This document shows positions 4,103-34,134 of a stretch of DNA of 37,554 nucleotides, piece by piece. A program made the position numbers and the translations under genes. Source of the stretch: an archaeon. Lineage in GTDB: Archaea; Thermoproteota; Nitrososphaeria; Nitrososphaerales; Nitrosopumilaceae. The stretch spans positions 1 through 37,554 of the forward strand of contig JAJRWR010000013.1 of assembly GCA_024276695.1 (NCBI GenBank), in the 5' to 3' direction. The notes beneath the pieces are model-generated. The model worked only from the letters and a program-made list of their open reading frames with translations, had not been told where the DNA came from and did no database searches. Positions within the stretch are counted from its first letter, which is position 1. Every line of letters starts with the position of its first letter.

Positions 4103-6019
4103 CTAGCTTCCTCCCAACAAAGGACCCATCGATGGAAGATATGACGAAAAATAAATTGAGACAAAAGTTATTGCAGCTGTAATTGTGACTCCCATGGTAT
4201 TTTTTACTGTAAAGTTTGCAACCTTGGACATTACCATTCCCATACATATGGCACTAATTGCAATGAGCAGGTTTATGATTCCTAAAAATTCAGGCGTTGC
4301 AGAAAGAAATGTTACTTGCCCTGAACCACCAAGCACCTGAAAGCTTGGACCTAATTGTTCCATAACCTCATCCATTGCCTTTGTCATCCATACCATCATC
4401 AACGGACTTGAATATGCCATAATAGCAAAAATTCTGATGCCCGATGTCATCTCTTTTTTTGCTTGATTGACTTTGGTAACAAAATTTGTAATGTATTCTA
4501 GGGTCTGGGGTCTTGCACCTCCACTGTCTGCAATCTTTCCAAGAACAAAAAATACCAGTCTTGCATTCCATGAACTTATTTTGTATGAGGATATAATCTC
4601 TGAGAGTTTGTAACCAAAGACAATCTTTGATGATATATCAAACATCAATGAATCAAAGTAATCGTTGTATCTTCGCTCTTTTGATATTCGTACTATACTA
4701 TTTGGTATTGCAGAACCTATCTTTACGTGCTCTGTTATATCTCGCAAGAAATCAGGCAGCACTGATTCTACAAGAGATATCTCTCGAAACTTTGCAAATG
4801 TCATTGCAGAATTCACAAAACTTCCTGCAAATACTGAAAGTACTAGAGTCTGCCAGCCTTCAAGTCCAATGATTATACCAATGGATGCAGTAATTACTGC
4901 AACAAAGATACTGTATTTGCTAAACTGGACTGCATCTCTAATCTTTGGTTGGGAATAATTTGTAACGAGTATCATCATAATGGCAATAAAGGGGACCAGC
5001 ACAAAGCTGGCATTTGTAATCATTTGGACCGAGCTTGCAGGCATCATAAATGCCGAAGAGATGAGCAAAACAGGCAGAACATTTAGCATAATTAGCATTG
5101 CCTCACCTATTGTGGCTGCCTGTGAGGAATACTGGCTCATGCGAAACCTCATAGAGTTGAAAAACTCTTCTCCCTTGTTTTCGAGATATCTGGCCAGACT
5201 TCCTCCGCTTTTGTGAATTGAGACATAGCCCAAAAGAAAGTTCTGAAATGTGTGATTGGGGTGATTTAGTGCAAGGTTGTTGATTGCTGAGAGCTCATCC
5301 ATTGCAAAGATTCTGACATTTCTTTGAATCATTTTGGATTCTCTCTCAAGCATCTTAAAGATTCCAGTTCCAGAAACTTCTGAAAGAGAGTTAAGCAGGG
5401 ATCTTCCTACACTTTGCATTATGCCACAATAAGCTGCAAAAAATGCAAGCTCATCTTCGATTTGTGACTTTCTTTCGGATGCAGTTGCTTTGAGTTTTAG
5501 AGTTGGAAATGCAAACATTATCCCAGGTACCAAAAGCAAACCAAAAAGTAAAACAGAATTTTCAAAAACAATTGAAAGCAAAATTGCAATTGGAATTGCA
5601 ACTATTCCTGCAAGGATCATGTAGGATGTGCTTTGCAATCCAAGCAGCCTTGGATTGGCTGCAAGTCCAGAAATTCGAATATCTGCTTCTATACTTTTGC
5701 TTATCTTTTTTTGTAGCTGTGTTAACAGTCTGAGACTTGTTACTGGCTTTACTAGATTTAATGCCATGTCTGAAGAGACCGTAGTTATTTTCAGATCAGT
5801 GTTTAAACTGAATAGAAAGTTTTGAAAAAATGTTTTTACGGGTTTGAAAAATTTTAAAATTTGTTTTGCAAGTTTGGGTTTGTCAATGGTATAAAGAATT
5901 ATTCCAGAAAATATTCCAATGATTACAAAAAATAAAAACTCGTTGTTAAGTAAAAGAAATACCCACATCAAAACAAAAACAGATACAATTGAGAGTCTGC
6001 TGAAAATTATTTTATTCAT
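4103..6019 (-). CDS. TadC/ArlJ-type pilus assembly membrane protein, 638 aa
   Basis: This is an integral membrane platform protein of the archaeal type IV pilus/secretion family, the usual partner of a TadA/ArlI-type ATPase. It begins with two hydrophobic segments (residues 8-45), then has two tandem T2SSF-like units: cytoplasmic helical parts (about 190-300 and 410-520) each followed by clustered membrane helices (about 305-395 and 530-630). Repeated patterns such as GYVSIHKSGGSLARYLENKG and the later GKIADSGGARPQTLEYI are typical of these cytoplasmic domains. The duplicated architecture and length agree with archaeal family members. It is divergent to the pilin-like gene at 6091. Confidence 0.85.
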   Translation of the reverse strand: MNKIIFSRLSIVSVFVLMWVFLLLNNEFLFFVIIGIFSGIILYTIDKPKLAKQILKFFKPVKTFFQNFLFSLNTDLKITTVSSDMALNLVKPVTSLRLLTQLQKKISKSIEADIRISGLAANPRLLGLQSTSYMILAGIVAIPIAILLSIVFENSVLLFGLLLVPGIMFAFPTLKLKATASERKSQIEDELAFFAAYCGIMQSVGRSLLNSLSEVSGTGIFKMLERESKMIQRNVRIFAMDELSAINNLALNHPNHTFQNFLLGYVSIHKSGGSLARYLENKGEEFFNSMRFRMSQYSSQAATIGEAMLIMLNVLPVLLISSAFMMPASSVQMITNASFVLVPFIAIMMILVTNYSQPKIRDAVQFSKYSIFVAVITASIGIIIGLEGWQTLVLSVFAGSFVNSAMTFAKFREISLVESVLPDFLRDITEHVKIGSAIPNSIVRISKERRYNDYFDSLMFDISSKIVFGYKLSEIISSYKISSWNARLVFFVLGKIADSGGARPQTLEYITNFVTKVNQAKKEMTSGIRIFAIMAYSSPLMMVWMTKAMDEVMEQLGPSFQVLGGSGQVTFLSATPEFLGIINLLIAISAICMGMVMSKVANFTVKNTMGVTITAAITFVSIYFSSYLPSMGPLLGGS

Positions 6020-9806: not shown

Positions 9807-11756
9807 TTATGGTCCTTCATAGTAAGGAATCAGAGGAGGATTTTCAGAGTGGATATCCCTAGTGAACTCTCTAGAATTTGGTTTTAATTTGTATTTTTTC
9901 TCAGGTTCATCATACTCGGAACCAATTATTATAAATTGTAAATCTTTGAGCTCATCGGAAGCTAGAGAATATATCAATTTATGAAATCCTTTAAAGATTT
10001 CTTCATCTTGTTTAGTTTCAATATTCTTCATGGGAGAATCTATGATAAGAAAAGATGGTAAAAGTTTATTGGATTTCATTGAAACTCTGTGAATAGCCAA
10101 TGCAAAACATGTTTTAAACAGAGTGAGTTTTCCACCACTTCCTAAACTTGCAAACTCTACTATCGAAAGTTCACCTTCCCCAGAAGGTTTCAGATAAGGT
10201 ACAAAATCATTTGTGTTCATTAGAACCTCATAATTTTTATCAATTTGCGGAAAATTTGCAGTTAGTAAGTTTTCCAAGAAGTATGATTTCAATAATTCAA
10301 TATTTTCTTTATCTTTCTCAGCATTTTTTTTAGCTTTAATGTATTGGTCCTTTACTTTAGCTAATTTACCTTCTAAATCATAAGATCGTTGATCTAAATC
10401 ATCAGCAGTTTTTGGAAGAGGGAGTAGTTTTTCACAAAGATGTATTTTTCCTTCAATTATTCCTTTTTGAGAAAGTAAATCAGATGCAGCAGTTAAAAAT
10501 TGGCTATCATAATGTTCTTCCAAATAATTAATTTTTTCATTTATTTCCTGTAAAAACATTTGATATTTCGTTAAAAGCTGTTCAGTGGTTCTTTTTTCAT
10601 TTTTCAAAGCATTGATAGAATTATCTAATTCTTTAGTCCTCTCTAATAATTCAGCATTAGTTTTAGATGATGAATCAAAACTCTTATCTTGTTTACATAT
10701 TGGGCAAGCAGATTCTTCTTTTGGAGGTTTAATCTTATTTCCACATTCAGGACATTTGTACCATGTCAATTCTCGAAATAGTTTGGACGCAGAAATATCC
10801 CTATCAGAGCGAATATTTGCAGTTAAAAATTCATGTTTGAGTTTAGTTTGTTTTTCTATTTGAGTATCAAAAAAGTGAAGAGAATTTTCATATTCAGATA
10901 TAGTATTATAGATTTCCTGACGTTCTCCACGTAATTTCTTTATGGTGTCTTCGTTATCATTTTGTATTGATGAATCAATTTTTGTGAGTTTTCCTTCAAT
11001 CTCTAATAAGGAATTTTGTAAAAGTTTCATTTCTTCTGAAATTTTGTTTGTATCATCAATGTTGTTTTGTTCTAGAATATCTCTGATTTGTTGTGCAGAT
11101 GTTTTTGTAGATGCTTTTTCTTCACGAATAGCAACCATTTCTTCTTCTAATTTTGAAACCTCTTCTTGATAATATCCTAAAACATATCTTAACACATCTC
11201 TACTTTTCAATTGTTTCATGAAATCCTCACCTTTAGAAAGGTAAAAGAACGAACTATCCATTTCTTCTTGAGAAAGGTAAGAATACCACATTAGGTCTTT
11301 AATACCCAATCGAATTCTTTTACTATCTTCTTTTACTTTACTACGTAAAACTTTTGGAGGAGATACACCCCCAAGATAGAATATCAAATCAGAAATATTG
11401 TATACTTCTTCATCAGGAATTAAAGAGACATTGTCTCTAGACACAAGTGGGACAATCAAACTTTTAGGATCATTGATACTTTTATCATTATAATGCACTA
11501 CAATTTGAGATGAATCTTTTTCTCGTTCAATAATTACATCATTATTTCCAATTAATAATTTTAATTGAATTGAAATGAATTCTTTCTGCAATGCATAGGT
11601 TAAATCTATATTTTTACCAAAACAATGCATAATCAATCTACCAATAGTGGATTTACCGGTACTGATTGGACCATAGAAATAATTTATTGAATCTAATTCA
11701 AGTATAACGGGTTCTTGTTTTGTAAATATGGTTAATTCTTTTAATTTTATAATCAT
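9807..11756 (-). CDS. SMC/Rad50-like ATPase of an ABC-three-component system, 649 aa
   Basis: This is an ABC ATPase of the coiled-coil type, expected to sense or act on nucleic acid and license a linked nuclease. Walker A is GPISTGKST (residues 29-37). Long coiled coils flank a central four-cysteine zinc module, CPEC then CPIC (about residues 337 and 352), like a zinc hook. A signature-like LGSGGKLTLFKTC and a Walker B FLIIDSP follow near residues 530-575. The start ATG overlaps the stop of the middle-component gene by four bases. The three-gene order (nuclease, small helical protein, ATPase) matches the ABC-3C conflict systems described by Aravind and colleagues. Confidence 0.85.
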   Translation of the reverse strand: MIIKLKELTIFTKQEPVILELDSINYFYGPISTGKSTIGRLIMHCFGKNIDLTYALQKEFISIQLKLLIGNNDVIIEREKDSSQIVVHYNDKSINDPKSLIVPLVSRDNVSLIPDEEVYNISDLIFYLGGVSPPKVLRSKVKEDSKRIRLGIKDLMWYSYLSQEEMDSSFFYLSKGEDFMKQLKSRDVLRYVLGYYQEEVSKLEEEMVAIREEKASTKTSAQQIRDILEQNNIDDTNKISEEMKLLQNSLLEIEGKLTKIDSSIQNDNEDTIKKLRGERQEIYNTISEYENSLHFFDTQIEKQTKLKHEFLTANIRSDRDISASKLFRELTWYKCPECGNKIKPPKEESACPICKQDKSFDSSSKTNAELLERTKELDNSINALKNEKRTTEQLLTKYQMFLQEINEKINYLEEHYDSQFLTAASDLLSQKGIIEGKIHLCEKLLPLPKTADDLDQRSYDLEGKLAKVKDQYIKAKKNAEKDKENIELLKSYFLENLLTANFPQIDKNYEVLMNTNDFVPYLKPSGEGELSIVEFASLGSGGKLTLFKTCFALAIHRVSMKSNKLLPSFLIIDSPMKNIETKQDEEIFKGFHKLIYSLASDELKDLQFIIIGSEYDEPEKKYKLKPNSREFTRDIHSENPPLIPYYEGP

Positions 11757-12316
11757 GCGTTTAACACCGATCCATATTTCATTTGATATAGTTCAGGTCG
11801 AAGTTCATACATTAATTTCATCAAATATGTTGCAGAGTATTTTCCATATATGGTGGTTATTACTTTAGAACGTTTGAAATAATCTTCAAATTCTTTTAAA
11901 TCAATTAAATTTTTAGCAGTTGTTTTTCCTTTAGGAGTGATTTTAATTAACACCGTTTTATTTTCTTCACCAAATTCAATTAATCCTTTAGCTTCCAGGA
12001 TTCGTAAAAACTCCCAATATCTATTATCCCATGGTCCAAACTTGTATCGAATCATTTTCGATTCAACACTATCAACTTCATGAGGTTTTATTTTGATAGA
12101 AGTTGTTGATCTTCCTTTTCTTTTCAGTGCCTGCTCCAACACACTAGGGTATCTCAATAGAAAATCTAATTTTACCAATTTTGTAATACCTTGAATGATT
12201 TCACCATATTCTTTTTTTGACATCTCATTCATCAATATCAACAATCTAGCCAAGTGAAAATCATAAGATTCATCTAATTTTATGATAGTGTTTATACTCC
12301 CTAGACTCATGTCCAT
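11753..12316 (-). CDS. Middle component of ABC-three-component system, 187 aa
   Basis: A small, mainly helical protein sits between the nuclease and the ATPase. The segment around residues 95-140 (YWEFLRILEAKGLIEF, then a beta turn and KITPKGKTTAKNL) looks like a winged helix-turn-helix. In ABC-3C systems the middle component is thought to couple effector and ATPase. Its start region (ATGGACATGAG) overlaps the restored end of the nuclease gene, and its end overlaps the ATPase start by four bases, so all three are translationally coupled. Confidence 0.75.
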   Translation of the reverse strand: MDMSLGSINTIIKLDESYDFHLARLLILMNEMSKKEYGEIIQGITKLVKLDFLLRYPSVLEQALKRKGRSTTSIKIKPHEVDSVESKMIRYKFGPWDNRYWEFLRILEAKGLIEFGEENKTVLIKITPKGKTTAKNLIDLKEFEDYFKRSKVITTIYGKYSATYLMKLMYELRPELYQMKYGSVLNA

Positions 12317-13514
12317 CCTCCTACAGGCATTTCACTAAAAGGAACTTCACATCTAGTCATCATAATTCCCAAAATCCCCTTAAGATGATCATAACTTACA
12401 TAATGAAATTTTTCAGGTGTTTGGTCAAGTTCTTTATGAAGTCGTTCTTCAATTAATTCAAGTTTTTTAGGACCGTCAAAATCATCTTTAGTTCTAGATT
12501 TTGTTTCACATTCAGCTTGAATAGTTGATAATTTTTTTGGATATCATCAAAATCTTTTTGAAGTTTTTCAGTTTCCTCTTTTTCATAATAATCCTCTAAG
12601 AAACGATATTCGGCAGATTTAGTAAGCATTTTCATGTTAGAAATTTCTGAAGAATTAATTTTTCCTAGATTCATTTTAAGATCAATTAGATAATAACTTC
12701 CAACCTCAATTTTTTCAGGCATTTTATCATCTAAATATACAACAGGTTTTTCAGATTCAATAATTTGTAAGACATCAGAATGTGAAACACGTTTTGTGTT
12801 GACGATTTGATTTTCTTTATCAGGTTTTTCTAAAAATGCAGAATATAATTGGAGAGAATCCTTTATTTCTGTAGACTTGATACCAATCATCCTAATCAAA
12901 GATTCAGTTATGATTTTTAATTTTGAATTATGTAATAATTTACATTCTTTTACTTCAGATAGATGTTTGTTGACAATAGTATCACGTATATGATCTTTAT
13001 CAGGAACAAGTTGAAATTCTATTTTTTTTAAAATGTTCACCAAAGTTTTATAATCATATTTAGATTTTTTTTCTAAATTTTGGATAATTTTTTTAACATC
13101 TTCAGAGATTGAAGATTTTTTACATTCTTTTACCAACTCTTCCAGAGGTGTTTTTGATTTTGAAAAAACTATTGGCATATTTGACATGAATACAAATCCA
13201 TCACATTCTTTAGGAAATTCTTCATCCAAATATCCAAATCTATTGATAGATTTTACTATTTCATCATCTAAAATTGAGAAAGGGCCCCTACGAGAATCTC
13301 TATATTTTATTTGAATTCCTTGCACATGACCATTGGGTTTCATAGCTAGAATATCTTCAAAGATTTCACAAAATAACTCGGAGAATTTGAATTTTCCCGA
13401 ATACATATTGATTGCAATTATTGTACCGCATGCGTATTGAAACTGGTAATTTGATTGTGTGGGTGCACCACCATCAATATTTTCCGCAAATTTTTTGGTT
13501 TTTTCTTTTTTCAA
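12307..13514 (-). pseudogene. Cap4/DUF4297-like nuclease effector of ABC-3C system, frameshifted
   Basis: The N-terminal domain (residues 13-75) carries the DUF4297/Cap4 double-strand DNA endonuclease pattern: GGAPTQSNYQFQYA, then FCEIFEDILA, then GIQIKYRDS, with E-D and QxK as likely metal and catalytic residues. The rest is a helical linker to the system-specific C terminus. As read, the frame ends at 12453. The A7 run (T at 12532-12538 on the + strand) appears one base short. With one more A the frame continues about 75 codons to end ...SEMPVGGWT at 12307, overlapping the next start. The restored length is 402 aa. The start is TTG. The lesion may be a sequencing error, inactivation, or a slippery site. 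Confidence 0.75.
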
Positions 13515-17951: not shown

Positions 17952-20900
17952 TTGGATATTTCTGAATTAAAAGCTGGTGCAATTATTGAAGGTCCTAAAT
18001 GGCCAGATCCAGTTGAAATTAAAAAAATTGAAGACTTTGGTGAAGATGTAAACATTGTTGGTTCACGAATACCTACAGGAATTCATGTAGATGTAATTTT
18101 ATCAAAAGAAGAATTATCACATATTAGTCTTAAAACAATTGATTGTGATTTTTCAAGTGAACCTTGGAAAGTGTTTCTAGCTTTAGAAACAATTCGTTAT
18201 CGTTTTGCGTCACTTTATGATCCTTTACTAGCTATGAACACATCTAAAGTTGATCCATTACCTCATCAAATTGAAGCAGTGTATGGTCACGTTCTAAAAT
18301 TACCACGAATTAGATTTTTGTTAGCTCATGATCCTGGTGCAGGAAAAACAATCATGGCAGGATTAATCATTAAAGAAATGAAATTAAGACATTTAGTTAA
18401 TAGAATTTTAATTGTTGTTCCAGGACATCTAAAAGATCAGTGGAGACGAGAACTCAAAGATAAATTTGAAGAAACTTTTGTAATTGCAGATAGAGGTTCA
18501 ACAAATGCTCTTTATGGAGAAAATGTTTGGACAAAAGAAAATCAATTAATCACTTCAATGGATTTTGCAAAAAGAGATGAAATTTTGCCATCACTACAAT
18601 CATCACAATTTGATTTAATCATAATTGATGAAGCACATAAGATGGCTGCATACAAGTACAGTGACAGTGTAACAAAAACTGGGAGATACAAACTTGGGGA
18701 AATTTTATCCACAAATTCAGAACATTTACTTTTTCTAACTGCTACACCACACAAAGGAGATACTGAAAATTTTAGATTATTCTTAGATCTTTTAGAACCA
18801 GGCTTCTTTGCTACGCCTGAAATGCTTGAGGAATCTATTGAAAAAGATGAAAATTCGTTATTTTTGAGACGAATCAAAGAGGATATGAAAGATTTTGACG
18901 GTAAACCTCTATTCCTACCTCGTCATGTTCTAACTCCTTCCTACAATTTATCAATGCCAGAACGTGATTTGTATAGAAAAATTACAGAATATGTAAGAAA
19001 TCAATACAACAAAGCGCTATCTTCTGAGAAAAAAAGAAACATTGGATTTGCTTTAATTATTTTACAAAGAAGATTAGCATCAAGCAGTTTTGCTTTATGG
19101 AAATCACTTCAACGTAGAAGAGACAGATTAAAAGATATAATGCAAGACTTTGAGAAATCAAAAAAATCCACTCCTAAAATGTTTGATTTTGATGACGCTG
19201 AAGATTTGAGTGAAGATGAAAGATGGGAACAAGAAAGAATTTGGGAAACACTCAGCATTGCAGAAAATAAAGAGGAATTAGAAAAAGAAATTCGCATACT
19301 TGAAGAATTAATTGTTGATACAAAAAATGTAATTGATCAAGAAGCAGAAGTGAAATTACAAAAACTAAAGGAAGCAATGAAGGAATTAGAAGGAAAATCA
19401 ATTAACAAGAAAATATTAATTTTTACAGAATCAAAAGACACGTTAGAATATCTAGAAAAACGAATCAAAAGTTGGGGGTATACGGTAAGTACTATTCATG
19501 GCGGAATGCAACTCTTAGAAAGAATTGAAGCTGAAAAAACATTCAAAACTCAAACACAAGTAATGGTAGCAACAGAAGCTGCAGGTGAGGGTATTAACCT
19601 ACAATTTTGCCACTTGATGATCAATTATGATATTCCTTGGAATCCAAATAGATTGGAACAAAGAATGGGTAGAGTTCACAGATATGGACAGAAATTTGAA
19701 GTATTTGTTTACAATTTAATTGCACAAGATACAATCGAAGGCAGAATATTCAAAAGACTATTTGAAAAACTAGCTGAAATAAAATCAAAACTAGGTAGCG
19801 ATAAAGTATATGATGTAATTGGAGAAATTTACTACGGAAAAGATCTTTCAAAACTCTTAATGGATGCAGCAATGGGCGCAAGAACAGAAGAAGAAATTTT
19901 AAAAGAACTTGAAATTACTGTTGATGCAGAATATATTAAAAAAATTAGAGAGAATTTAGGCGATACATTAGCTACAAAGCATATTGATTTTACTCAAATC
20001 AAAGATTTGAGAGAAAAAGCAAGGGAAAACAAACTAATTCCAGAATATACTGCCGAATTTTTCAAAAAAGCATTTACAAAAGCAGAAGGGAAAATCAGAG
20101 ATAGGCCAAGATCACTCTATGCAATTGACTCAATTCCATATTGGATAAGAAACATAACAAAAGAAGATAATTTAAAAAAATCATTTGGACCAACGCTCAA
20201 TTCATATCCAAAAATTACATTTGATAAAGAAGTAGGTTCCAAAGATCAGGATGCAGAATTTATCACATTTGGTCATCCATTATTTGAAGCTGTGTTAGAA
20301 TGGATTAGTAGATCATTTTCAGCAGACTTGCAAAAAGGTGCAGAATTCATTGATCATTCAGGTCAACTAAATGGGGAAATTATATTTTTTGAGGGTGCCA
20401 TCAACGATGGTACTGGTAGAACTGCAGGTAAAAGATTATTTTCATATTATGTAGATTCAAAAACAAATACTATAGAATTTATTCAGCCAACAATTCTTTG
20501 GGATTTACAAGAATCAAAAACAAAAAGTAATAGTTCGGTAGATATTGAAAACCTAAAAAGTAAAGTTCAATCAGAAGTTATCAAGACATTAAGAAATTAT
20601 CAAAATGAATTACTAGATGAAAGAAACAGACAGGCAGAAATTAAAGAAAAGTATGGAATACAATCTCTGCAAAAATTAATTTTTGATCATGATTCTGATC
20701 TCTTACAACTTAGAACAAGAAAGGAGAAAGGAGAAAATGTTGATCTTGCCATACGCAATAAAGAAGAAAGACAGAGACAGTACATGGATAATAAAAAACA
20801 TCTTGAAGATTTAATTCAGAGAGAGAAAAGTCTAACAATTAGTACACCTGTATTTCTAGGCATAATCAGAGTGATTTCACCTGATGTAATTCAGGATGAA

Positions 20901-21284
20901 ATGAAGGAAAATGCTGAATCTGAAAAAGTGGCAATGGAAGTAGTCATGAAATTTGAAACAGAACGTGATAGAACACCTATAGATGTTTCAAAAATTATTG
21001 GTCCTGGATATGATGTAAAATCAATTGATAAAGAAGGAAACACACGATATATCGAAGTTAAAGGAAGAAGCGGAGTCGGTTCTGTTGCACTATCCAAAAA
21101 TGAGTGGTTTAAGGCAAAACATCTTGCCGAAGATTATTATCTTTATGTTGTTTGGAATACAAAAGACTATTCAGGAACTGATCTAAAACCTCTAATTATT
21201 CAAGATCCTGCACATAATCTAAATCCAAAATTAGATATTCATTATTTAGTGGATGCATCAGAAATAAAAGAGAAGTCAATATAA
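17952..21284 (+). CDS. SNF2-family helicase with C-terminal DUF3883 domain, 1110 aa
   Basis: This is a superfamily 2 ATPase/translocase on DNA. Motifs in order: Q-like LPHQIEAVYG, Walker A DPGAGKT (about residue 126), DEAH (about 225), TATPHKGD, helicase-C TEAAGEGINLQF (about 541) and motif VI RMGRVHRYGQ. A charged coiled-coil middle is followed at about residues 1000-1075 by DUF3883 (GPGYDVKSID, RYIEVKGRSG, NEWFKAKHLA), a nuclease-like fold found in many defence proteins. The start is TTG. Its stop overlaps the methylase start by one base (TAATG). With methylase, DUF499 ATPase and HEPN genes downstream it forms a predicted restriction-like operon. Confidence 0.92.
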   Translation: MDISELKAGAIIEGPKWPDPVEIKKIEDFGEDVNIVGSRIPTGIHVDVILSKEELSHISLKTIDCDFSSEPWKVFLALETIRYRFASLYDPLLAMNTSKVDPLPHQIEAVYGHVLKLPRIRFLLAHDPGAGKTIMAGLIIKEMKLRHLVNRILIVVPGHLKDQWRRELKDKFEETFVIADRGSTNALYGENVWTKENQLITSMDFAKRDEILPSLQSSQFDLIIIDEAHKMAAYKYSDSVTKTGRYKLGEILSTNSEHLLFLTATPHKGDTENFRLFLDLLEPGFFATPEMLEESIEKDENSLFLRRIKEDMKDFDGKPLFLPRHVLTPSYNLSMPERDLYRKITEYVRNQYNKALSSEKKRNIGFALIILQRRLASSSFALWKSLQRRRDRLKDIMQDFEKSKKSTPKMFDFDDAEDLSEDERWEQERIWETLSIAENKEELEKEIRILEELIVDTKNVIDQEAEVKLQKLKEAMKELEGKSINKKILIFTESKDTLEYLEKRIKSWGYTVSTIHGGMQLLERIEAEKTFKTQTQVMVATEAAGEGINLQFCHLMINYDIPWNPNRLEQRMGRVHRYGQKFEVFVYNLIAQDTIEGRIFKRLFEKLAEIKSKLGSDKVYDVIGEIYYGKDLSKLLMDAAMGARTEEEILKELEITVDAEYIKKIRENLGDTLATKHIDFTQIKDLREKARENKLIPEYTAEFFKKAFTKAEGKIRDRPRSLYAIDSIPYWIRNITKEDNLKKSFGPTLNSYPKITFDKEVGSKDQDAEFITFGHPLFEAVLEWISRSFSADLQKGAEFIDHSGQLNGEIIFFEGAINDGTGRTAGKRLFSYYVDSKTNTIEFIQPTILWDLQESKTKSNSSVDIENLKSKVQSEVIKTLRNYQNELLDERNRQAEIKEKYGIQSLQKLIFDHDSDLLQLRTRKEKGENVDLAIRNKEERQRQYMDNKKHLEDLIQREKSLTISTPVFLGIIRVISPDVIQDEMKENAESEKVAMEVVMKFETERDRTPIDVSKIIGPGYDVKSIDKEGNTRYIEVKGRSGVGSVALSKNEWFKAKHLAEDYYLYVVWNTKDYSGTDLKPLIIQDPAHNLNPKLDIHYLVDASEIKEKSI

Positions 21285-23935
21285 TGGAACGTAGATTTAT
21301 TGAAGAGTATTTTCCCGTAAAACAAATTAGTATAATTTCATCCGAAGAAAAATCTATCAGACATGGTCATATTTCAACACTTCATTTGTGGTGGGCTCGT
21401 AGACCGCTAGCAGTTTCTAGAGCAACAATTTTTTCATCATTGATTAGTTCTATAGATAACAAAAAAGAATTAAAACAAAAAATGGAATTTATTAAAGAAT
21501 TATCAATATGGAAAAATTCTACTAATCAAAATAATTTAGAAAAAGCTAAGAAAAACATTGAAAAGAATTTTCAAAATACACCAAAGATTTTGGATCCATT
21601 TGCAGGCGGAGGTTCAATACCATTAGAGGCAACTAGATTAGGATGTGAAACATATGCAAATGATTACAATCCTGTTGCAGTAATTATTCAAAAAGCAACT
21701 TTAGAATATCCTCAAAAATATGGATATATAAAAAAAGAGAAAGAAATTTTTACCCATACAGAAAATCAACTTTTAAAAGATTTCAAAATTTGGTCAGAAT
21801 GGGTTTTTGAAGAAGTTAAAAAAGAAATTAGTTTATTCTATCATTCTGATGATGAATATGATGCTGTAGGTTATATTTGGGCAAGAACATTACCTTGTCA
21901 AAATCCTTTATGTGGAAAAACGATTCCATTAATGAGTCAATACTGGTTAGCAAAAAATTTAAAAAATAAAATTGCGATTCATCCAATAAAAGAAGGATTT
22001 GAAATTGTTGGGAATGGTTACAAAAAAATCCCTAATAATTTTGATCCGTCTACAGGAACAATTTCTAGAGCAACTATCACATGCCCATTTTGTACTTCAA
22101 GAATAGAAGGAAAAATTACACGTAAACTTTTTCAAGAAAAGAAAAACAATGAAGAATTAATTGCTGTCATTCTAAATAAAAAAGGAACAACAGGTAAAAA
22201 ATATAGAATTGCTACAAAAAAAGAAATTTCTCAAATAAAAGATGTAGAATTATTTCTTAAAGAAAAAATTTCTAAAATGGAAAGACAGTTTGGAATATCA
22301 CCAATTCCAACAGAGAAGTTTCCTACCGATGTAAGAATGATTTCTGAACCATTAGGAAGTGCACAGAATTATTTTTTTGAAACTTGGGGAGATTTGTTTA
22401 ATTCTAGACAAAAATTATCTTTGATTACATTTATGGAAAAAATTAGAGAAGGATATTCATTAATGATTCAAAAAAATATGGATAAAGAATACGCTAAAGT
22501 CATAACAACTTATCTTGCATTACAGTTAGATAGATTAGTTGACAAAAATGCAACATTAGTTATTTTTAATGTAGTGGGGGAAAAAATTGAGCATGTTTTT
22601 GGTAGACAAGCTTTCCAAATGACATCGGATTATGTAGAAATAAATCCATTTACTAATGTTGGTTGGCCAAATATGGCAGGTTGGATTTCAAGAGTTATTG
22701 AGCATTGTAGCACTATTAAAAATCCAATAAACATTACAAATCATTCTGCAACTAATCTGAATTATGATGATGAATATTTTGATGCAGTGATAACAGATCC
22801 ACCGTATTATGATAATGTCGCGTATTCACATTTAGCAGATTTTTTTTATGTGTGGTTAAAAAGAAGTATTGGGTTTCTATATCCAGAATTATTTTCAACC
22901 CCACTTTCTCCAAAATCAGATGAAGCTGTAGCATATTCTGATATTAAAGATGGAAAAGAATGTGGTAAAGAAAATTTCGAAATTATGTTAAAAAAATCAT
23001 TTAGTGAGATTTCACGAGTTTTAAAACCAGATGGGATATCAGTAATTGTTTATGCACATAAATCTACGGATGGGTGGGAAACGTTGATCAATTCTTTATT
23101 AAATTCAGGATTAGTAGTAACTGCCGCATGGCCAATTCATACGGAAAGAAAGGCAAGATTGATTGCTAAAGATTCTGCTTCACTTTCTTCTTCAATTTAC
23201 ATGGTATGTAGAAAATGGAAAAAGGAACCAATTGGATTTTACAGAGATGTAAAAAAAGAATTAAAACAATATCTCAATAAAAAACTAGAGCAATTATGGA
23301 ATGAAGGAATATCTGGAGCTGATTTTTTCATTTCTGCCATAGGTTCAGCAATAGAAGTATTTGGAAAATATGAGAAAGTTGTTGATGATAAGGATGAAAC
23401 AATATTGATACAGAAGTTGTTAAATGATACAAGAAAAATTGTTACAAACTATGCAATAAACAAAGTTATCAAAGGAGAATTCTCTGAAGAGATTTCACAA
23501 ATGACACGATTCTATATTTTATGGAGATGGGCATATGGAGAAGCAAAAGTTCCATTTGATGATGCTTTGAAAATGGCACAAAGTGTTGGTATTGATATAG
23601 AGCATGAATGGGATAAAGGATTCATTGTAAAAGAGAAAGAAATAATTCGTGTTTTAGGACCTGATGAAAGAAATCAGAATAAAATTGAAGAGTCTCACGA
23701 ATTAATTGATATTTTGCATATTACATTACTACTTTGGAAAAAAGAAAATAGAGAAACAGTTGATAAATTCTTAGAAGAAAAAGGATACAAAAATAGTGAA
23801 GTTTTCAAACGTGTTGCACAAGCAATTTCTGAATCATTACCCCTAGAAAGTACTGAAAAGAAATGGCTGGACGGATTTCTTACAGGTTTCAAATCTGATG
23901 ATTCTGAAGATTCAAGTCAAAGGAAACTGTTTTAA
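21284..23935 (+). CDS. DUF1156-family DNA methylase (COG1743 type), 883 aa
   Basis: A predicted adenine-type DNA methyltransferase. The N-terminal DUF1156 signature is HGHISTLHLWWARRPLAVSR (residues 28-47). The SAM-binding motif I is ILDPFAGGGSIPLEA (about residue 103), and the catalytic motif IV is ITDPPYYDNVAY (about residue 504). Between them lie two zinc-like cysteine pairs (CQNPLC and CPFC). It is the expected self/non-self marking subunit of the operon. Length and order fit the family, which in other genomes is recurrently next to DUF499 ATPases and SNF2-like helicases. Gap to the next gene is 29 bases. Confidence 0.93.
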   Translation: MERRFIEEYFPVKQISIISSEEKSIRHGHISTLHLWWARRPLAVSRATIFSSLISSIDNKKELKQKMEFIKELSIWKNSTNQNNLEKAKKNIEKNFQNTPKILDPFAGGGSIPLEATRLGCETYANDYNPVAVIIQKATLEYPQKYGYIKKEKEIFTHTENQLLKDFKIWSEWVFEEVKKEISLFYHSDDEYDAVGYIWARTLPCQNPLCGKTIPLMSQYWLAKNLKNKIAIHPIKEGFEIVGNGYKKIPNNFDPSTGTISRATITCPFCTSRIEGKITRKLFQEKKNNEELIAVILNKKGTTGKKYRIATKKEISQIKDVELFLKEKISKMERQFGISPIPTEKFPTDVRMISEPLGSAQNYFFETWGDLFNSRQKLSLITFMEKIREGYSLMIQKNMDKEYAKVITTYLALQLDRLVDKNATLVIFNVVGEKIEHVFGRQAFQMTSDYVEINPFTNVGWPNMAGWISRVIEHCSTIKNPINITNHSATNLNYDDEYFDAVITDPPYYDNVAYSHLADFFYVWLKRSIGFLYPELFSTPLSPKSDEAVAYSDIKDGKECGKENFEIMLKKSFSEISRVLKPDGISVIVYAHKSTDGWETLINSLLNSGLVVTAAWPIHTERKARLIAKDSASLSSSIYMVCRKWKKEPIGFYRDVKKELKQYLNKKLEQLWNEGISGADFFISAIGSAIEVFGKYEKVVDDKDETILIQKLLNDTRKIVTNYAINKVIKGEFSEEISQMTRFYILWRWAYGEAKVPFDDALKMAQSVGIDIEHEWDKGFIVKEKEIIRVLGPDERNQNKIEESHELIDILHITLLLWKKENRETVDKFLEEKGYKNSEVFKRVAQAISESLPLESTEKKWLDGFLTGFKSDDSEDSSQRKLF

Positions 23936-23964
23936 TCTGGGAAATATTCTAAGAAATTCAGATT

Positions 23965-26526
23965 ATGGCTTTTCATGAAATTGCAGTTCCACATAGAGAT
24001 ATCCTATCTCAAAATTTTTCAAGTGAAGTATATGCAGCAAAGCTTTGGGATGTGTATAATAAAAGAGGTTCTGACGAATACAAAGATTCAAAAATATTTT
24101 TTGAAAAAACATATCTTACTGACAATCTCAAAAAAATTCTAGATTCTATTAAAGATAGACTAGATGGAAAAAGTGGTGGTCATTTTCGTTCTATATCCAC
24201 ACCTTTTGGCGGAGGAAAAACTCATACATTAATTGCATTGTATCATAAATGTATAGAGTGGGATGTGAAACCAGTAGTTCTAGTTGGAAATGAAATTGAT
24301 CCTACTACACATACATTATGGGGAATGATTGAGGAGCAATTAACTGGGAAAATAGAAAAACTTACAGGAAATGTTTCACATGGGGGTGAAGCATTAAGAA
24401 AAGTACTTGAAACACAAAACAAACCTATTTTGATATTAATTGATGAATTATTACAGTACGTATCAAAAGCTGATGGTGTCAAAGTAGAACAATCAACTTT
24501 AGCTAAACAAACCATTGGGTTTGTTCAAGAACTCAGTGAAGCTGTAAGTAGTTTTTCTAATGTTTGTGTTGTAGTAACATTACCATCTAGTGCTAATGAA
24601 CAATTAGATGATGAAAGACATACTGAACTATATGAGCAATTGCAAAAATTTGCAGGAAGGACAAAAGATACTATAACTCCAGTTGCAGATAATGATATTC
24701 CAAAAATTATACGACATAGATTATTTTCATCTACAGATGCAGAGATTAGAGATAGATCAGAAGGAATCATAAAAGACTTTGTTGATTATTGCGATGATGA
24801 AGGATTAATTCCTGAAGGGATGCAGGTATCACAATATAGAGAAGAATTTGCTAGAAGTTATCCATTTTTACCTCAAGTCATTGATGTGTTATATCAAAGA
24901 TGGGGAACAATTACAAGATTTCAAAGAACAAGAGGGGTTTTACGTCTTTTATCTTTAGTAATTAATTCACTTGCAACAAGTGAGAAACAATTTATCAGTT
25001 TAGGCGATTTTGATTTGAAAAATAATGAAATAAAACAAGAATTAGTTGATTATCTTGATCCTCAATTTTACAGTGTATTATCAAAGGATATAGTTGATAT
25101 TGATTCGGGAGCCTCAAAAGTAAATCAAAAAGTTCCAGAAATGTATAGGGGAAGACAATTGGGAATTAGAGCAGCTACTGCAATTTTTATGTATTCACAT
25201 TCTGGTACAACTGGAATTGATGGGGCAACAGAGGCAGACATCAAAAGAGCAACATGTTCACGGGGTATTCCTTCAGCTCAAATTAGTGAAGTTCTGAATC
25301 TATTTCGAAATCAATTATTCTATCTTAATGTAACAAATGAAAAATATCTATTTACAAAAGAAGCAAACATTCTAAAAATCAAAGTTGATACAATGGAAAA
25401 TATCAAACAAAGAGACATTGATGATGCTGAAAAAACATTAATCAAAAACAATATTGGAAAAACTTCAAATTTCCCTGTAATATTATGGCCATCCAGTCCT
25501 AAAGAAGTTGAAAATTCACATTCATTAAAATTAATCATTATGAAAGAAAATGACATTAAATTAATTCAATCCATCTATGAAAATATTGGAGAGTCTCCAA
25601 GAGTTTATAGAAATAATATTTTATTTTTAACCCCATCCGATGGTGAGAAAGGAAAGTTTCTACATTCATTAAAAAGTAAAATTGCATGGGAAAAAATTAA
25701 AAAAGATCCACTTATTCCTCTTAAAGAAGAACAACTTGCTGCATTGAATAGTGAACTTAAAAATGAAACTACTCGATTAAATGATCTAATTAAAGACTAT
25801 TACAGTACTTTGTATCTTCCTGAAAAAGAAGGTCCAATAAAACATCACTTCAACATTCCATTAAATGCAAACAGAGGTATTGATGAAATAATCTATGAAC
25901 ATCTGGTAGAAGAAGATCAAATTCATCCAAAACTTGGACCATCATTTTTAAAAAATCATTATTTAAAAGATCAAAAATACATAGAAACATCAAATCTTTA
26001 TGAATCCATGCTTAGAACCCCCGGTGAAAGAAGACCAATACACAAAAGTGTCATAGAGCAAGCCATAATGGATGGTGTTTTAAATGGAGAATTTGGAATC
26101 GGTGAACTTGAGAATAATATTCCAAAGTCAAGATTATTTAAAAAATCAACTCAAGTTAGTTTTGAATCTGGTGAAATAATACTTCAAGCATCTCTTTGTG
26201 AAGAGGAATCAGAATATTTCTGTGATAAATGTGGTCATAAAGCAAGCAGTAAGGAAGAGCTTGAAACACATTATGAATCTCATATTAAATCTGCAGGCAG
26301 TGAAGGAGAAGAACCACCAGATGATTCAATAAAAAAACTAGACTTTGGATTTACTGTTCCTGAAGGACAAATAAACAACATTAGTCAAATGTTATTAAAA
26401 ATAGCATCACATTACAAAGATTTGAAACTAAAAGTTGAAGCTGATGATGGTAAAATGACAAAACATGATCTAGATTTGATTAAAGAAACCCTTAGACAGA
26501 TTGGATCATATTCAGATTTGTTGTAG
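23965..26526 (+). CDS. DUF499-family AAA+ ATPase with C2H2 zinc finger, 853 aa
   Basis: A large P-loop ATPase of the DUF499 (COG1483) group, which by general architecture resembles BrxC/PglY ATPases of BREX-like systems. Walker A is FGGGKTHTLIALYH (about residue 80) and Walker B ILILIDELLQYV (about residue 155). A sensor-like VVVTLPSS follows. Near residue 752 is a classical C2H2 finger pattern (C-x2-C-x12-H-x3-H, from CDKCGHKASS to HYESH), unusual in such an ATPase and possibly used for DNA contact. It sits between the methylase and HEPN genes, five bases before the latter. Confidence 0.92.
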   Translation: MAFHEIAVPHRDILSQNFSSEVYAAKLWDVYNKRGSDEYKDSKIFFEKTYLTDNLKKILDSIKDRLDGKSGGHFRSISTPFGGGKTHTLIALYHKCIEWDVKPVVLVGNEIDPTTHTLWGMIEEQLTGKIEKLTGNVSHGGEALRKVLETQNKPILILIDELLQYVSKADGVKVEQSTLAKQTIGFVQELSEAVSSFSNVCVVVTLPSSANEQLDDERHTELYEQLQKFAGRTKDTITPVADNDIPKIIRHRLFSSTDAEIRDRSEGIIKDFVDYCDDEGLIPEGMQVSQYREEFARSYPFLPQVIDVLYQRWGTITRFQRTRGVLRLLSLVINSLATSEKQFISLGDFDLKNNEIKQELVDYLDPQFYSVLSKDIVDIDSGASKVNQKVPEMYRGRQLGIRAATAIFMYSHSGTTGIDGATEADIKRATCSRGIPSAQISEVLNLFRNQLFYLNVTNEKYLFTKEANILKIKVDTMENIKQRDIDDAEKTLIKNNIGKTSNFPVILWPSSPKEVENSHSLKLIIMKENDIKLIQSIYENIGESPRVYRNNILFLTPSDGEKGKFLHSLKSKIAWEKIKKDPLIPLKEEQLAALNSELKNETTRLNDLIKDYYSTLYLPEKEGPIKHHFNIPLNANRGIDEIIYEHLVEEDQIHPKLGPSFLKNHYLKDQKYIETSNLYESMLRTPGERRPIHKSVIEQAIMDGVLNGEFGIGELENNIPKSRLFKKSTQVSFESGEIILQASLCEEESEYFCDKCGHKASSKEELETHYESHIKSAGSEGEEPPDDSIKKLDFGFTVPEGQINNISQMLLKIASHYKDLKLKVEADDGKMTKHDLDLIKETLRQIGSYSDLL

Positions 26527-26531
26527 TTATA

Positions 26532-27176
26532 ATGACTTCTCAAAAATCATTTGATCCCAGATACAGAGTAAACATAGAATTAGGTATGAGGGTTATGATA
26601 GAAGAAGAAAATAGTAAGAATTCAGAATTAGTTTCATGTTATGTTAAAGAAATCATTACACCAGATGTAATGAATGAATCAGGAATTAAGGTTATTTGTG
26701 AAGATGGCAAAAAGGGTAGAGTGAAACATATTGGAACTGAATCATCGTTTATGGATTCAAATGATCTTTTAGTAGTCTTAGAAAGAAAACTGCGTAAAAT
26801 AATTGTAGAAGAGTTAAGTAAAGTAGATCGGAATTGGTGGGATAGTCTTGGACCTATAATAAAAGATGATGTGCAGAGAAAGTTAGATACTGGTGGCGAA
26901 CAAAGAAAACAATTAGGTATTCCAAATTATGAATTAATTGAATATACTAATTTCTATCATTTACCAGATATGATTCTTGGTAAACGTTGGCAATATTTTG
27001 AAAAAATATTTAAAAATAAAAATGCTATAGATGTAAAATTACATGAGTTGGCAACAATTCGAAATCCATCTGCACATTCAAATATTCTTCCAGAAATGAT
27101 AGAAAAAAAGATCCAAGTTTATTATGATGATATTGTTCGTCTGATAGAAAATTATCAAAGAAATCTAAATAACTAA
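26532..27176 (+). CDS. DUF2196-like domain fused to Swt1-type HEPN domain, 214 aa
   Basis: Residues 11-68 follow the DUF2196/YwbE pattern (VNIELGMRVMI, then SGIKVICEDGKKGRVKHIG), a small beta-barrel-like module likely to bind nucleic acid. Residues 80-212 are a helical domain with the HEPN motif RNPSAH (R177, N178, H182; Rx4H), the catalytic pair of HEPN ribonucleases. HEPN proteins act as toxins or abortive-infection RNases in many defence systems. As last gene of the operon it may be the killing effector or a regulator of the DUF499 ATPase. The fusion is clear; the activity is inferred. Confidence 0.85.
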   Translation: MTSQKSFDPRYRVNIELGMRVMIEEENSKNSELVSCYVKEIITPDVMNESGIKVICEDGKKGRVKHIGTESSFMDSNDLLVVLERKLRKIIVEELSKVDRNWWDSLGPIIKDDVQRKLDTGGEQRKQLGIPNYELIEYTNFYHLPDMILGKRWQYFEKIFKNKNAIDVKLHELATIRNPSAHSNILPEMIEKKIQVYYDDIVRLIENYQRNLNN

Positions 27177-30737: not shown

Positions 30738-31256
30738 TCAAAATTTTAAGCTATTTACAATTAGAATAATCAAAAAAGCGTACATGCCAATGAAAATTAA
30801 TGGGATAACTAATTCCACATCCGTAAGTTTCCTGTATTTCTTCCATCTGCCTCTCTTGTTTCTTAGAATATTCCATTCTATTTCATGAATTTTTAATGGA
30901 AGCCGTTCTTCTATTTTCAAAACTATATCCCACTTTACAGTACCTAACAAAATGTATGATCTAATTGTACGAAACCATGAATATGCAAATAATATTCCTG
31001 CAATTCCTCCACCGATAATCCAAAATTGATTATTTGTCTCAAATGTTGATCCAAATTGTACTAGTATTCCAAGGGCAGCAATTAAACCTGTATTGATACT
31101 TAAGAAAAAACTATGTGTTATTTTTCTTCTATTTTCTAAGCTATCTATATTATTTAGATAAATTCTATACTGTTCAAATAATTTATCATCATAATCATCC
31201 CCATACTCGTCTTTGGATTTTGAAAAAATATCCTCTATTGAAATCTCATCTGTCAA
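30738..31256 (-). CDS. RipA-like small membrane protein, likely effector of TIR pair, 172 aa
   Basis: An acidic N terminus is followed by SLENRRKITHSFFLSINTG, a hydrophobic pair (about residues 49-66 and 78-96), a soluble segment with the order IEERLPLKIHEIEWNIL, and a last helix (about 148-168). This resembles the RipA-type octameric membrane family found beside defence genes. It lies six bases after the TIR-like gene. By analogy with membrane effectors of Thoeris-like systems, it may disrupt the membrane when the TIR partner is active. Family call moderate, function inferred. Confidence 0.65.
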   Translation of the reverse strand: MTDEISIEDIFSKSKDEYGDDYDDKLFEQYRIYLNNIDSLENRRKITHSFFLSINTGLIAALGILVQFGSTFETNNQFWIIGGGIAGILFAYSWFRTIRSYILLGTVKWDIVLKIEERLPLKIHEIEWNILRNKRGRWKKYRKLTDVELVIPLIFIGMYAFLIILIVNSLKF

Positions 31257-31262
31257 TAATCA

Positions 31263-31751
31263 TCACTTATCCAATTTATCTGCAATTTGTTTTGCATTCC
31301 AATAAATTACCTTATCCCCATGTTCTCTCATAGCACTGGGAACAGTATGATTGCCATCTTTATGGAGTCTAACTCCAATTACCTGTTTGCCTTGTCTATG
31401 TGCTTCTCTAATTTCCCAATCTACCGCTTCGCTTTTGTGAGTATCTTTTCCAATCGCTACGATCACTGCACTTGTTTGAGAAATTCTTTCTCTAACACCT
31501 TGTTTCCACTTACTTTCAAATGGTTCTTTAATTGAATAATCTCTGAAAACAAACGGAAATCTGTCATCTTTTGCTTGATTTGCCAAAAATCTGACCATTC
31601 CTTGGTCCTCCATATCAAAACTGATGAACACATTTCTTTGATAATCTGTAATTGTTTTTTGGGCTTTGTCTTCTGCACGTTGAAAAACATTATCTGAACT
31701 TTTTCCACTTTTACTAGTTGAAGGGGTATATGTTGTTCCTGAACCACCCAT
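31263..31751 (-). CDS. TIR-like (DUF1863/ThsB-like) protein, 162 aa
   Basis: After a low-complexity N terminus the domain reads RNVFISFDMEDQGMVRFLA, FRDYSIKEPFESKW, TSAVIVAIGKDTHKSEAVDW and GKQVIGVRLH. This is the MTH538/DUF1863 TIR-like pattern found in ThsB of Thoeris defence, which makes a nucleotide signal from NAD on infection. E113 in VDWEIREA is at the position of the TIR catalytic glutamate. It starts 25 bases after the QueC-like gene and is followed closely by the RipA-like gene. Confidence 0.8.
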   Translation of the reverse strand: MGGSGTTYTPSTSKSGKSSDNVFQRAEDKAQKTITDYQRNVFISFDMEDQGMVRFLANQAKDDRFPFVFRDYSIKEPFESKWKQGVRERISQTSAVIVAIGKDTHKSEAVDWEIREAHRQGKQVIGVRLHKDGNHTVPSAMREHGDKVIYWNAKQIADKLDK

Positions 31752-31776: not shown

Positions 31777-32373
31777 TTAAGATTGGTTTAGTCCTTCAAT
31801 TTCAAAAACCTTTTTTCTATCAACACAGCCTAGACATTTCTTACAAGGTTTTAAAAAACCACTATAACAGGAGTAGGTAAAATCTAAAGGAATGTTGTTG
31901 ACTTTTGCTAACCGCACTACTTCCAACTTGTTTAACTCTGATAATGGTGCTAAAATTATAATTTTTCTTCCATAAGATAAAGTTTTTTCTGCATCTTGTA
32001 GAAACTCTTTTGATTGGTCTAGAAAATTTGTCTCTCCGATAATTCCTATTGCTATTACATTACATGAATAATTTGCAGAAAAAGATGATGCAATAGATAA
32101 TAAAATAATGTTTCTATTTGGAAAAAATGATTTTGTTAAAGATATGTTTTCGTTAGTTAATCCTGATTTGATTGTAGATAATCCTGAAATGTCTATTACG
32201 TTAAGTTTTAATTTTAATAATTTACATGCTGCATTTGCAGCTTTTTGTTCCTGTTTTATTGATTTTTGCCCATAGTTGACAAATAATGGTATCAATTCAT
32301 TATTTTTTTTATATAGCCGAAAAAGTAAAACTGTTGAATCTATTCCGCCGGACACCAAACAAACTATTTTCAT
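31777..32373 (-). CDS. queC: QueC-like 7-cyano-7-deazaguanine synthase, 198 aa
   Basis: QueC converts 7-carboxy-7-deazaguanine to preQ0 using ATP and ammonia. The PP-loop SGGIDST is at residues 8-14, and the C-terminal zinc site is C169-x7-C177-x2-C180-x2-C183. The protein is rather short for QueC (usually about 220-240). It lies two bases after the glycosylase gene and, with the DpdA-like gene, suggests a dedicated supply of 7-deazaguanine for DNA. It could also serve tRNA archaeosine. Confidence 0.85.
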   Translation of the reverse strand: MKIVCLVSGGIDSTVLLFRLYKKNNELIPLFVNYGQKSIKQEQKAANAACKLLKLKLNVIDISGLSTIKSGLTNENISLTKSFFPNRNIILLSIASSFSANYSCNVIAIGIIGETNFLDQSKEFLQDAEKTLSYGRKIIILAPLSELNKLEVVRLAKVNNIPLDFTYSCYSGFLKPCKKCLGCVDRKKVFEIEGLNQS

Positions 32374-32375
32374 AA

Positions 32376-33095
32376 TTAATTATTTCTCATATAATGCCAA
32401 ATAGCTAAATCTAATGTGTTAAGTTCCAACCCATGAAATTCTGCCAAATTTTGTAAAATAATTTCTAATTTTTCATATCTTGATTCAGTCATAGTTGAAA
32501 TTTCTAATGGATTCACAAAATGATTTTGTTTTAAAAAATTCAAAACATGAACATCAATAATTGCTAAAGACTTGGAATATCCAATGTTTCTTAGGAAATG
32601 TGATGATTCTTTAATACCGATTCCTGGAACTTTTTTTGCTAGAAAATTTCTTACATCTACATCAGATATGGCATCTTCAAGTATTTCTTTAATGGATGAA
32701 TTTGAATACAAAATTTTTGCAGCTTTGGTAATCTCTTCAGAACGTTTTTGTGGATAGCGGTATTTTCTTAAACCTCCATCTTTTTTCTTGGGTTCAAAGT
32801 TAGGCCCATTAAACAGTTGAAAAATCATTTGTTCTGAAGATTTATCTTCCAAAATCCATTTGTAATCTAAAAATCCGTTTTTTTCCAGCACATTAATTGT
32901 TGATTTAACTAATTCAAATGCGACATTTCCTGAAAGTAAACAAAAGCATAGTTCTTTCCATGTTTGATATTCGTTTAATCCATTCCAGTTGTTTCTCCAT
33001 GACTGATTTTTTTCTAAATCATAGTAAATTTCTAAAAGTGATGGTTCTAGAAATGAATCTTGAATTGTAGTTAAAGACATTTTTAGACTATCCAA
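32376..33095 (-). CDS. Ogg2-like HhH-GPD DNA glycosylase, 239 aa
   Basis: The C-terminal half carries the helix-hairpin-helix plus catalytic residues of type 2 8-oxoguanine glycosylase/AP lyases: KKVPGIGIKESSHFLRN with K162, then AIIDVHVLNFL with D181. The ending LDLAIWHYMRN also fits Ogg2. The usual role is removal of 8-oxoguanine from DNA. Its place between DpdA-like and QueC-like genes (31-base gap upstream, two bases downstream) suggests it acts on guanine or 7-deazaguanine in this system. The N-terminal 40 residues are not typical. Confidence 0.8.
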   Translation of the reverse strand: MDSLKMSLTTIQDSFLEPSLLEIYYDLEKNQSWRNNWNGLNEYQTWKELCFCLLSGNVAFELVKSTINVLEKNGFLDYKWILEDKSSEQMIFQLFNGPNFEPKKKDGGLRKYRYPQKRSEEITKAAKILYSNSSIKEILEDAISDVDVRNFLAKKVPGIGIKESSHFLRNIGYSKSLAIIDVHVLNFLKQNHFVNPLEISTMTESRYEKLEIILQNLAEFHGLELNTLDLAIWHYMRNN

Positions 33096-33126: not shown

Positions 33127-34134
33127 TTAAAAAAATTTGACGATCTTGGAAAATGTTTTGCGATCAACATATTGTTCTAGTATTTTCAAGTCATTGTCCT
33201 TTAAAATCGCCGTTTGTAATTCCTGTGTGAATTTTTGATAAAATAACAGGTTATGCAATAATGCTTTGTTTGTAGAGTCAATTTCTTTTCTCTTACAAAT
33301 CTCACATGTGCAGTTAATCAATTCAATATGATTCAGATCCATAAATTGCAGAGTTTTCGGATCAATTGTCCATCTTGACCAATCTATGCTATCAAAACTA
33401 TCTGCCCCCGCAAATGCAAACATTCCAATGGATAATGGGTTTCCACATCCCAAAATATGTAAAATATTTGCAGGGTTTTTTTCACTTAGAATGTTTCTAA
33501 TTTTTTTTATAGTTGTAATTTTATCTTTGATTGTTTTCCCACAATCTCTTTCTGGAATGGCATACATTGATGGCTCTTCTTCTTTTTTAGCATTATCTTC
33601 CACAACTTTGATTAATTGTGAAGGGGTATTGCCGTGTACCACTGCTGCACAATGGCTATGTTTAGAAATTATCGAAGAGATTTTTACAAATTTTTTTACT
33701 TGAGAAGAAATTTTTGTTAAACTGTCATCTGGTTTTGGAATTTCGTCAAAACTAGTGTAAATATCTCCTGACAACTCTTTAATTATTTTCTTGTATTTGT
33801 CAAACGTCCATTTTTTATCATTCAGCCAATAACTTTCAAATGTTCCACTATCTACAAATAATATGTTATTTTTTGTGTATTCTTTAAGAATTTTAATCAT
33901 TGATTTCTTTTCATTTTGTATGTTGTACAAATCATATGCTGAAACTAATAATCTCGGATAATCTTTACTTGTACAAAATTGAATTAATGATGACATTTGT
34001 ATTCTCGTAGCAGCACTAGATATAGATGGAAAGTATGTTGGTGTTGCCACTTTTTTATCTTCAAAATGAATTTCTAAAACTCTTGATTCTCTTTTTCCTC
34101 TGTGAATATAATTAATTTTTTTCACATTTTTCAT
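33127..34134 (-). CDS. dpdA: DpdA-like DNA-guanine transglycosylase (TGT family), 335 aa
   Basis: A TGT-fold enzyme. DpdA exchanges guanine in DNA for a 7-deazaguanine such as preQ0. D95 in VDSGTFES and D248 in SFDSIDWSRW are at the positions of the TGT acid/base and nucleophile. The zinc site is C275-x-C277-x2-C280 and H294. It lacks the PUA-containing extension of archaeal tRNA TGT, and the length fits DpdA. Its neighbours (glycosylase, QueC) support a DNA role. A divergent tRNA enzyme is the alternative. Confidence 0.85.
   Translation of the reverse strand: MKNVKKINYIHRGKRESRVLEIHFEDKKVATPTYFPSISSAATRIQMSSLIQFCTSKDYPRLLVSAYDLYNIQNEKKSMIKILKEYTKNNILFVDSGTFESYWLNDKKWTFDKYKKIIKELSGDIYTSFDEIPKPDDSLTKISSQVKKFVKISSIISKHSHCAAVVHGNTPSQLIKVVEDNAKKEEEPSMYAIPERDCGKTIKDKITTIKKIRNILSEKNPANILHILGCGNPLSIGMFAFAGADSFDSIDWSRWTIDPKTLQFMDLNHIELINCTCEICKRKEIDSTNKALLHNLLFYQKFTQELQTAILKDNDLKILEQYVDRKTFSKIVKFF

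Follow-up and report, generated by a model that had tools for sequence, protein, structure and literature searches.

A conserved TIR operon with Cap9-like, Cap10-like and Ogg2-like genes in a Nitrosopumilaceae archaeon: a probable relative of type IV CBASS

Why does a DNA glycosylase gene lie between a gene of the TGT family and a gene of the QueC family in an archaeon of the Nitrosopumilaceae? The window analysed here is a stretch of 37,554 nucleotides (contig JAJRWR010000013.1). A sequence-only reading of it had described the gene at 32376-33095 as an Ogg2-like glycosylase that keeps the catalytic residues K162 and D181 and is sandwiched between DpdA-like and QueC-like genes. The Ogg2 assignment was borne out (Pfam Ogg-HhH, PF22175, E = 7.8e-35; MjOgg, PDB 3fhf, E = 1.6e-21), and both residues are present and invariant in the aligned relatives (K162 in 84/84, D181 in 83/83). 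The flanking by a TGT-family gene (33127-34134) and a QueC-family gene (31777-32373) was likewise correct in outline. The label DpdA was not, the NCBIfam DpdA profile giving 11.5 bits (cut-off 200), and the Dpd system of 7-deazaguanine DNA modification was rejected on this score. The proposed dpd context falls with it: the set matches the OGG, QueC and TGT models of PADLOC for type IV CBASS, in which the QueC and TGT models stand beside the OGG model PDLC00910.

The glycosylase gene (hereafter OGG) is the second of five genes that run head to tail on the minus strand in the order TGT, OGG, QueC, TIR and 8xMP, separated by 31, 2, 25 and 6 bases. They encode a Cap10-related TGT-family protein of 335 aa (Pfam TGT, 4.8e-15), the Ogg2-fold, glycosylase/lyase-like OGG of 239 aa (an ATG a few codons downstream is also a possible start), a Cap9-related QueC-family protein of 198 aa (PF06508, 7.4e-40), a ThsB-like TIR protein of 162 aa (31263-31751; ThsB_TIR, 1.3e-16) that begins MGGSGTTYTP, and an 8xMP membrane protein of 172 aa (30738-31256; PF24838, 8.9e-30) that is the presumed effector. 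The TIR and membrane protein genes, both missing from the sequence-only reading, decided the identity of the operon. Profile searches with Pfam, NCBIfam and PADLOC did not find a CD-NTase in the operon, and the whole genome (1.56 Mb, 41 contigs, completeness 99%) holds no SMODS (CD-NTase) match above cut-off; the single match below it lies elsewhere, in a 461-aa frame. Another genome of the genus carries all five genes in identical order, and its TIR protein starts MGGATEF.

Other parts of the window also carry probable defence genes. A probable Hma system occupies 17952-27176, with the HmaA helicase (17952-21284), the HmaB methylase (21284-23935), the HmaC ATPase (23965-26526) and, downstream of HmaC, a PDC-M34B-like gene (26532-27176). 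A probable Lamassu-like set, here in an archaeon, lies at 9807-13514 and consists of an LmuB-like SMC gene (9807-11756), an LmuC-like gene (11753-12316) and a gene for a Cap4-nuclease protein (12453-13514). Together with the TIR operon, these two sets mark the window as a defence island. At its left end (28-972 and 4103-6019) are genes for a T2SSE ATPase and a T2SSF membrane protein, of the type II/IV secretion or pilus-like kind.

Relatives of the operon were searched for with an alignment of TIR-linked TGTs, one genome being scanned per species. This returned 80 loci, from 13 named bacterial phyla and three archaeal phyla; a genome scan with a single TGT sequence returned none. In archaea and 13 bacterial phyla, 85 distinct loci (86 in total) share the order TGT-OGG-QueC-TIR, a uniformity that is partly due to selection, since the loci were retrieved by TIR-linked TGT patterns and many of them are related. 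A glycosylase placed beside the TGT gene only here would have counted against the sequence-only reading; OGG takes the same place in each of these distinct loci. With locally built profiles TGT and OGG were found in 86/86 loci and QueC in 83, the other three reaching the contig edge first. Where the contig end does not cut the locus, the TIR gene is directly behind QueC in 82 of 83 cases; in the 83rd (L102) the slot is taken by a divergent MGG protein. No relative was found in the E. coli genomes or the phage records searched. That this is one conserved operon, with a TIR protein in the slot of the CD-NTase, is hardly in doubt. The short protein in the TIR slot of L102 (12222-12659) begins MGGGSGGSYTP and has no Pfam match; it may be a degenerate or an unrecognised TIR.

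A second, plasmid-borne set with a QueC of a different clade was seen in three loci (L019, 5138-9416; L021, 5878-10613; L022, 5857-9493). It comprises genes for a PfkB-family kinase, QueC and OGG, with no TGT listed, along with a restriction endonuclease, oxidoreductase-like or Dam-like gene. In L019 the kinase carries a nucleoside deoxyribosyltransferase-like domain, and a small Gly-rich protein starts MSGSGGG.

Work from 2025 reportedly described protein deazaguanylation on the CD-NTase of type IV CBASS. To our knowledge the attachment of a modified guanine to the start of a protein has been reported or proposed for only two other anti-virus systems. In type IV CBASS, the CD-NTase starts MGGS and receives 7-carboxy-7-deazaguanine (CDG) on its N-terminal glycine, Gly2, through the action of Cap9; Cap10 binds the tagged end, and both Cap9 and Cap10 are required for defence (PMC11996544, PMC13279940). 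Our yardstick was a type IV CBASS on a Pseudanabaena plasmid (L110), which has QueC, Cap10, a CD-NTase (SMODS, 9e-11; PADLOC cyclase, 1.1e-125) and a 2TM effector. The PADLOC models score strongly in this genuine system (TGT, 6.5e-110; QueC, 2.6e-69), whereas the window scores weakly on the CBASS OGG, QueC and TGT models (TGT, 1.7e-24; QueC, 9.3e-37). No OGG was found beside L110, the one locus sampled, so that the presence of OGG, found in every TIR locus, is not explained by the sampled type IV CBASS. Pseudomonadaceae genomes, searched for CBASS-type TGTs, yielded three matches, of which two are known TIR loci. The TIR version was not found in the literature searched, in PADLOC 2023 or in NCBIfam 2026; the key Science 2025 paper lay outside the search, and priority is uncertain.

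The best PDB match of the QueC-family protein is Cap9 (9nto, 2.6e-16). Its ATP and zinc sites are both conserved. Across 82 sequences the SGGxDS motif, R87-N88, the four zinc cysteines and D119 do not vary; F117 is retained in 79 of them. In the Cap9 structure a tyrosine stacks on the base and an aspartate reads its Watson-Crick edge (PMC13279940); these residues correspond to F117 and D119, so that the aromatic/Asp pair is kept as Phe/Asp. The position of the cysteine in the YPDC motif of canonical QueC and Cap9 is occupied by a glutamine (Q120) in 81/82 TIR-linked QueCs, and the exact reaction may therefore differ from that of Cap9. In a quick tree, with long branches and unsure deeper joins, the TIR-linked QueCs form one clade (95*) beside Cap9 (82). 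Canonical QueC stands apart, and with it a second, canonical QueC of the genome. This canonical copy lies on contig C3 of the genome side by side with folE and a gene for a QueE-like radical-SAM protein (both named by eye from the sequence); with these three genes the host can, by prediction, make CDG.

For the TGT-family protein the best PDB match is Cap10 (9ntn), and D95, D130 and D248 are invariant among 85 relatives. From their invariant catalytic residues, the QueC and TGT proteins of the operon look active. Rhizobial plasmids carry a TIR-TGT fusion, OGG, QueC and TIR in order, and their TIR proteins start MGGGGGG or MGGGSSG. In 31 bacterial loci a PfkB-family kinase gene lies immediately upstream of TGT (for example L015, 4336-5484); the TGT of such loci often has a fused N-terminal domain, in several cases a TIR.

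The TIR protein of the window has the N-terminus MGGSGTTYTPSTSKSGKSS. Its fold is nearest to the Bacillus cereus TIR 8fz9 and to ThsB, and W112 and E113, the latter assigned as the catalytic Glu by alignment logic, are invariant in the relatives (E113 in 80/80). In the AlphaFold2 model residues 1-40 have a pLDDT of about 50 and the TIR fold follows; the tail with the MGGS motif and this low-confidence stretch (residues 1-38, 31638-31751) is probably disordered. The TIR behind QueC begins MGG in 77/81 distinct loci; three intact loci start MTAGGGGG, MGATGG and MAGSGGG, and one gene is broken. The distance from the stop of QueC to the MGG start is mostly 1-3 bases. Among the other ORFs of the same loci, MGG follows a possible start in 2/52 TIR ORFs, both at doubtful positions, and in 21/844 long ORFs; the Fisher p of 1.7e-25 for the specificity makes the case look stronger than it is, since many of the loci are related. 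The CD-NTase of a genuine type IV CBASS begins MGGSGGGFFSNSDI and aligns with the TIR tails far above shuffles: tails like MGGGGGGGIPSSDLKRLEEKAKQSLKEA scored 56 against the L110 CD-NTase, with the N-terminus MGGSGGGFFSNSDITKELREAEAQTKN, and 200 shuffles gave a mean of 14 and a maximum of 36. By analogy with Thoeris, the TIR protein would be a signal maker and not a killer.

The 8xMP protein occupies the same position in other archaeal loci (L005, L023, L025 and L027). A scan of 54 flanking genes gave 31 SLATT/DUF4231, 7 TIR domain, 5 8xMP (in archaea) and 4 TPR-S matches, with SMODS absent from the families listed. Many bacterial loci also encode a small 2TM protein upstream, which is related to SLATT. 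SLATT/DUF4231 proteins are 2TM effectors known from CBASS. No relationship between 8xMP and SLATT was detectable in our comparison. The layout is that of a signal maker with a membrane effector, in which TIR takes the place of the CD-NTase. As in Thoeris, a ThsB-like TIR with a conserved Glu adjoins a candidate effector; the operon differs from Thoeris in its MGG tail, its QueC/TGT/OGG set and its 8xMP or SLATT membrane proteins. The Thoeris effector ThsA (SIR2-SLOG or TM-Macro) was not seen, the Pfam matches being 8xMP here and SLATT, TIR and TPR-S in the relatives.

OGG shares with the Ogg2 enzymes MjOgg, SsOgg and TmOgg the fold, the HhH-GPD motif and the catalytic Lys and Asp. Its AlphaFold2 model (pLDDT 93) has MjOgg as best structural match (TM 0.71/0.81). 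The fold and the invariant Lys/Asp make glycosylase or lyase chemistry likely, as predicted from sequence. In Ogg2 enzymes a strictly conserved C-terminal lysine reads the N7-H of 8-oxoG. Unlike these enzymes, the window protein ends WHYMRNN, and only 2/83 relatives end in Lys; the 8-oxoG-sensing lysine is lost. As the tag would carry a protein chain at position 7, this loss could make room for a 7-linked deazaguanine. The distribution of OGG is accessory as well: Ogg-HhH is above the family cut-off in 2/95 genomes of the genus, both times within the TIR operon, and the gene is thus an accessory one in the genus. Elsewhere in the genus two weak matches fall below the cut-off, of which the one in L013 resembles endonuclease III. 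This agrees with the earlier placing of OGG in a defence module and not in housekeeping repair.

Taken together, we regard it as quite likely that the five genes form an antiviral operon and that this operon, which would use N-terminal deazaguanylation, is a TIR-based sister of type IV CBASS. We infer the modification, the TIR activity, the effector role and the OGG substrate as follows. Methionine aminopeptidase would expose Gly2 of the TIR protein, and the Cap9-like QueC would use ATP to couple CDG from the host archaeosine pathway to it. It is very likely that the N-terminus of the TIR protein is modified by the QueC-like enzyme, and likely too, if a little less firmly so, that CDG is what the enzyme adds. 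The Cap10-like TGT would bind the tagged N-terminus and keep the TIR protein in a ready state. During infection, the TIR domain would use NAD+ to make a signal, or deplete it, and growth would be stopped by the membrane protein encoded next to it, which is 8xMP here and a SLATT protein elsewhere. For OGG we can offer a role only tentatively. It may act on the nucleobase tag, which we hold possible but short of probable. Its target would be the glycosidic bond that holds a 7-linked deazaguanine, set into nucleic acid by the TGT, and OGG would either recognise this bond or cleave it. The fuller version, in which the TGT swaps the tagged TIR protein into nucleic acid as a covalent sensing adduct and OGG, which no longer has the Ogg2 lysine located at position 7 of the base, cuts or reads the bond, switching the TIR on or off, seems rather unlikely. 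The earlier suggestion that the glycosylase removes a 7-deaza base may hold in an altered form, in which the base would be the one on the TIR protein.

Other explanations were weighed against this one. The QueC-like enzyme might add a group other than CDG to the TIR protein, or only bind its glycine tail, which would place the operon closer to qatABCD than to type IV CBASS. Such a reading would account for Gln120 in the place of the YPDC cysteine, and it has a precedent in QatB and QatC, whose chemistry is still to be established and where the N-terminal MGTS start of QatB is essential (PMC13279940). In both systems a QueC-family enzyme stands beside a protein with a conserved N-terminal Gly motif on a disordered tail. 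The likeness ends there: QatC is about 20 kDa larger, with a remodelled active site and N- and C-terminal extensions, the 198-aa protein of the window reaches only 16.3 bits with the NCBIfam QatC profile (cut-off 280), QatB is not a TIR, and qatABCD has neither TGT nor OGG. Unlike QatC, the QueC-like protein of the window retains the aromatic and Asp residues with which Cap9 holds the base, and its TGT partner belongs to a family of deazaguanine-base enzymes. We consider this alternative improbable.

A slightly smaller chance still is given to a dpd-like arrangement, in which TGT and QueC would place a 7-deazaguanine mark in DNA or tRNA and OGG would strip it off, or else act against DNA that bears no mark or a foreign one; the TIR pair would then be a Thoeris-like neighbour with no relation to these genes. 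Both families make such marks in other settings, and the three catalytic aspartates of TGT and the Lys and Asp of OGG are kept. Against an unrelated neighbour speak the TIR gene directly after QueC in all complete loci, the fusion of the rhizobial TGT to a TIR domain and the specificity of the MGG start for the TIR behind QueC; the DpdA score is far under its cut-off, and the genome has a separate canonical QueC. An ordinary 8-oxoG repair glycosylase, among defence genes by chance, would fit the Ogg2 fold, the catalytic residues and the fact that OGG is the sole Ogg-HhH match of its genome. It is barely credible in view of its presence above cut-off in so few genomes of the genus and only in the operon, its identical placement in all loci found and the missing C-terminal lysine. 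The reading as a TIR-based sister of type IV CBASS is the one that we prefer. Like type IV CBASS, the operon has a QueC and a TGT closest to Cap9 and Cap10, an adjoining partner with an MGGS start and a flexible tail, and a gene for a small membrane effector; the partner is a TIR protein here and a CD-NTase there.

If this reading is true, archaea and 13 bacterial phyla would share an operon in which the same machinery acts on a TIR protein, and the deazaguanine tag would be a general tool of immunity rather than a peculiarity of CD-NTases. OGG would become a core part of the system, with a prediction that can be tested at the level of residues, and culturable carriers of the operon are at hand in Pseudomonas, Rhizobium and Bradyrhizobium.
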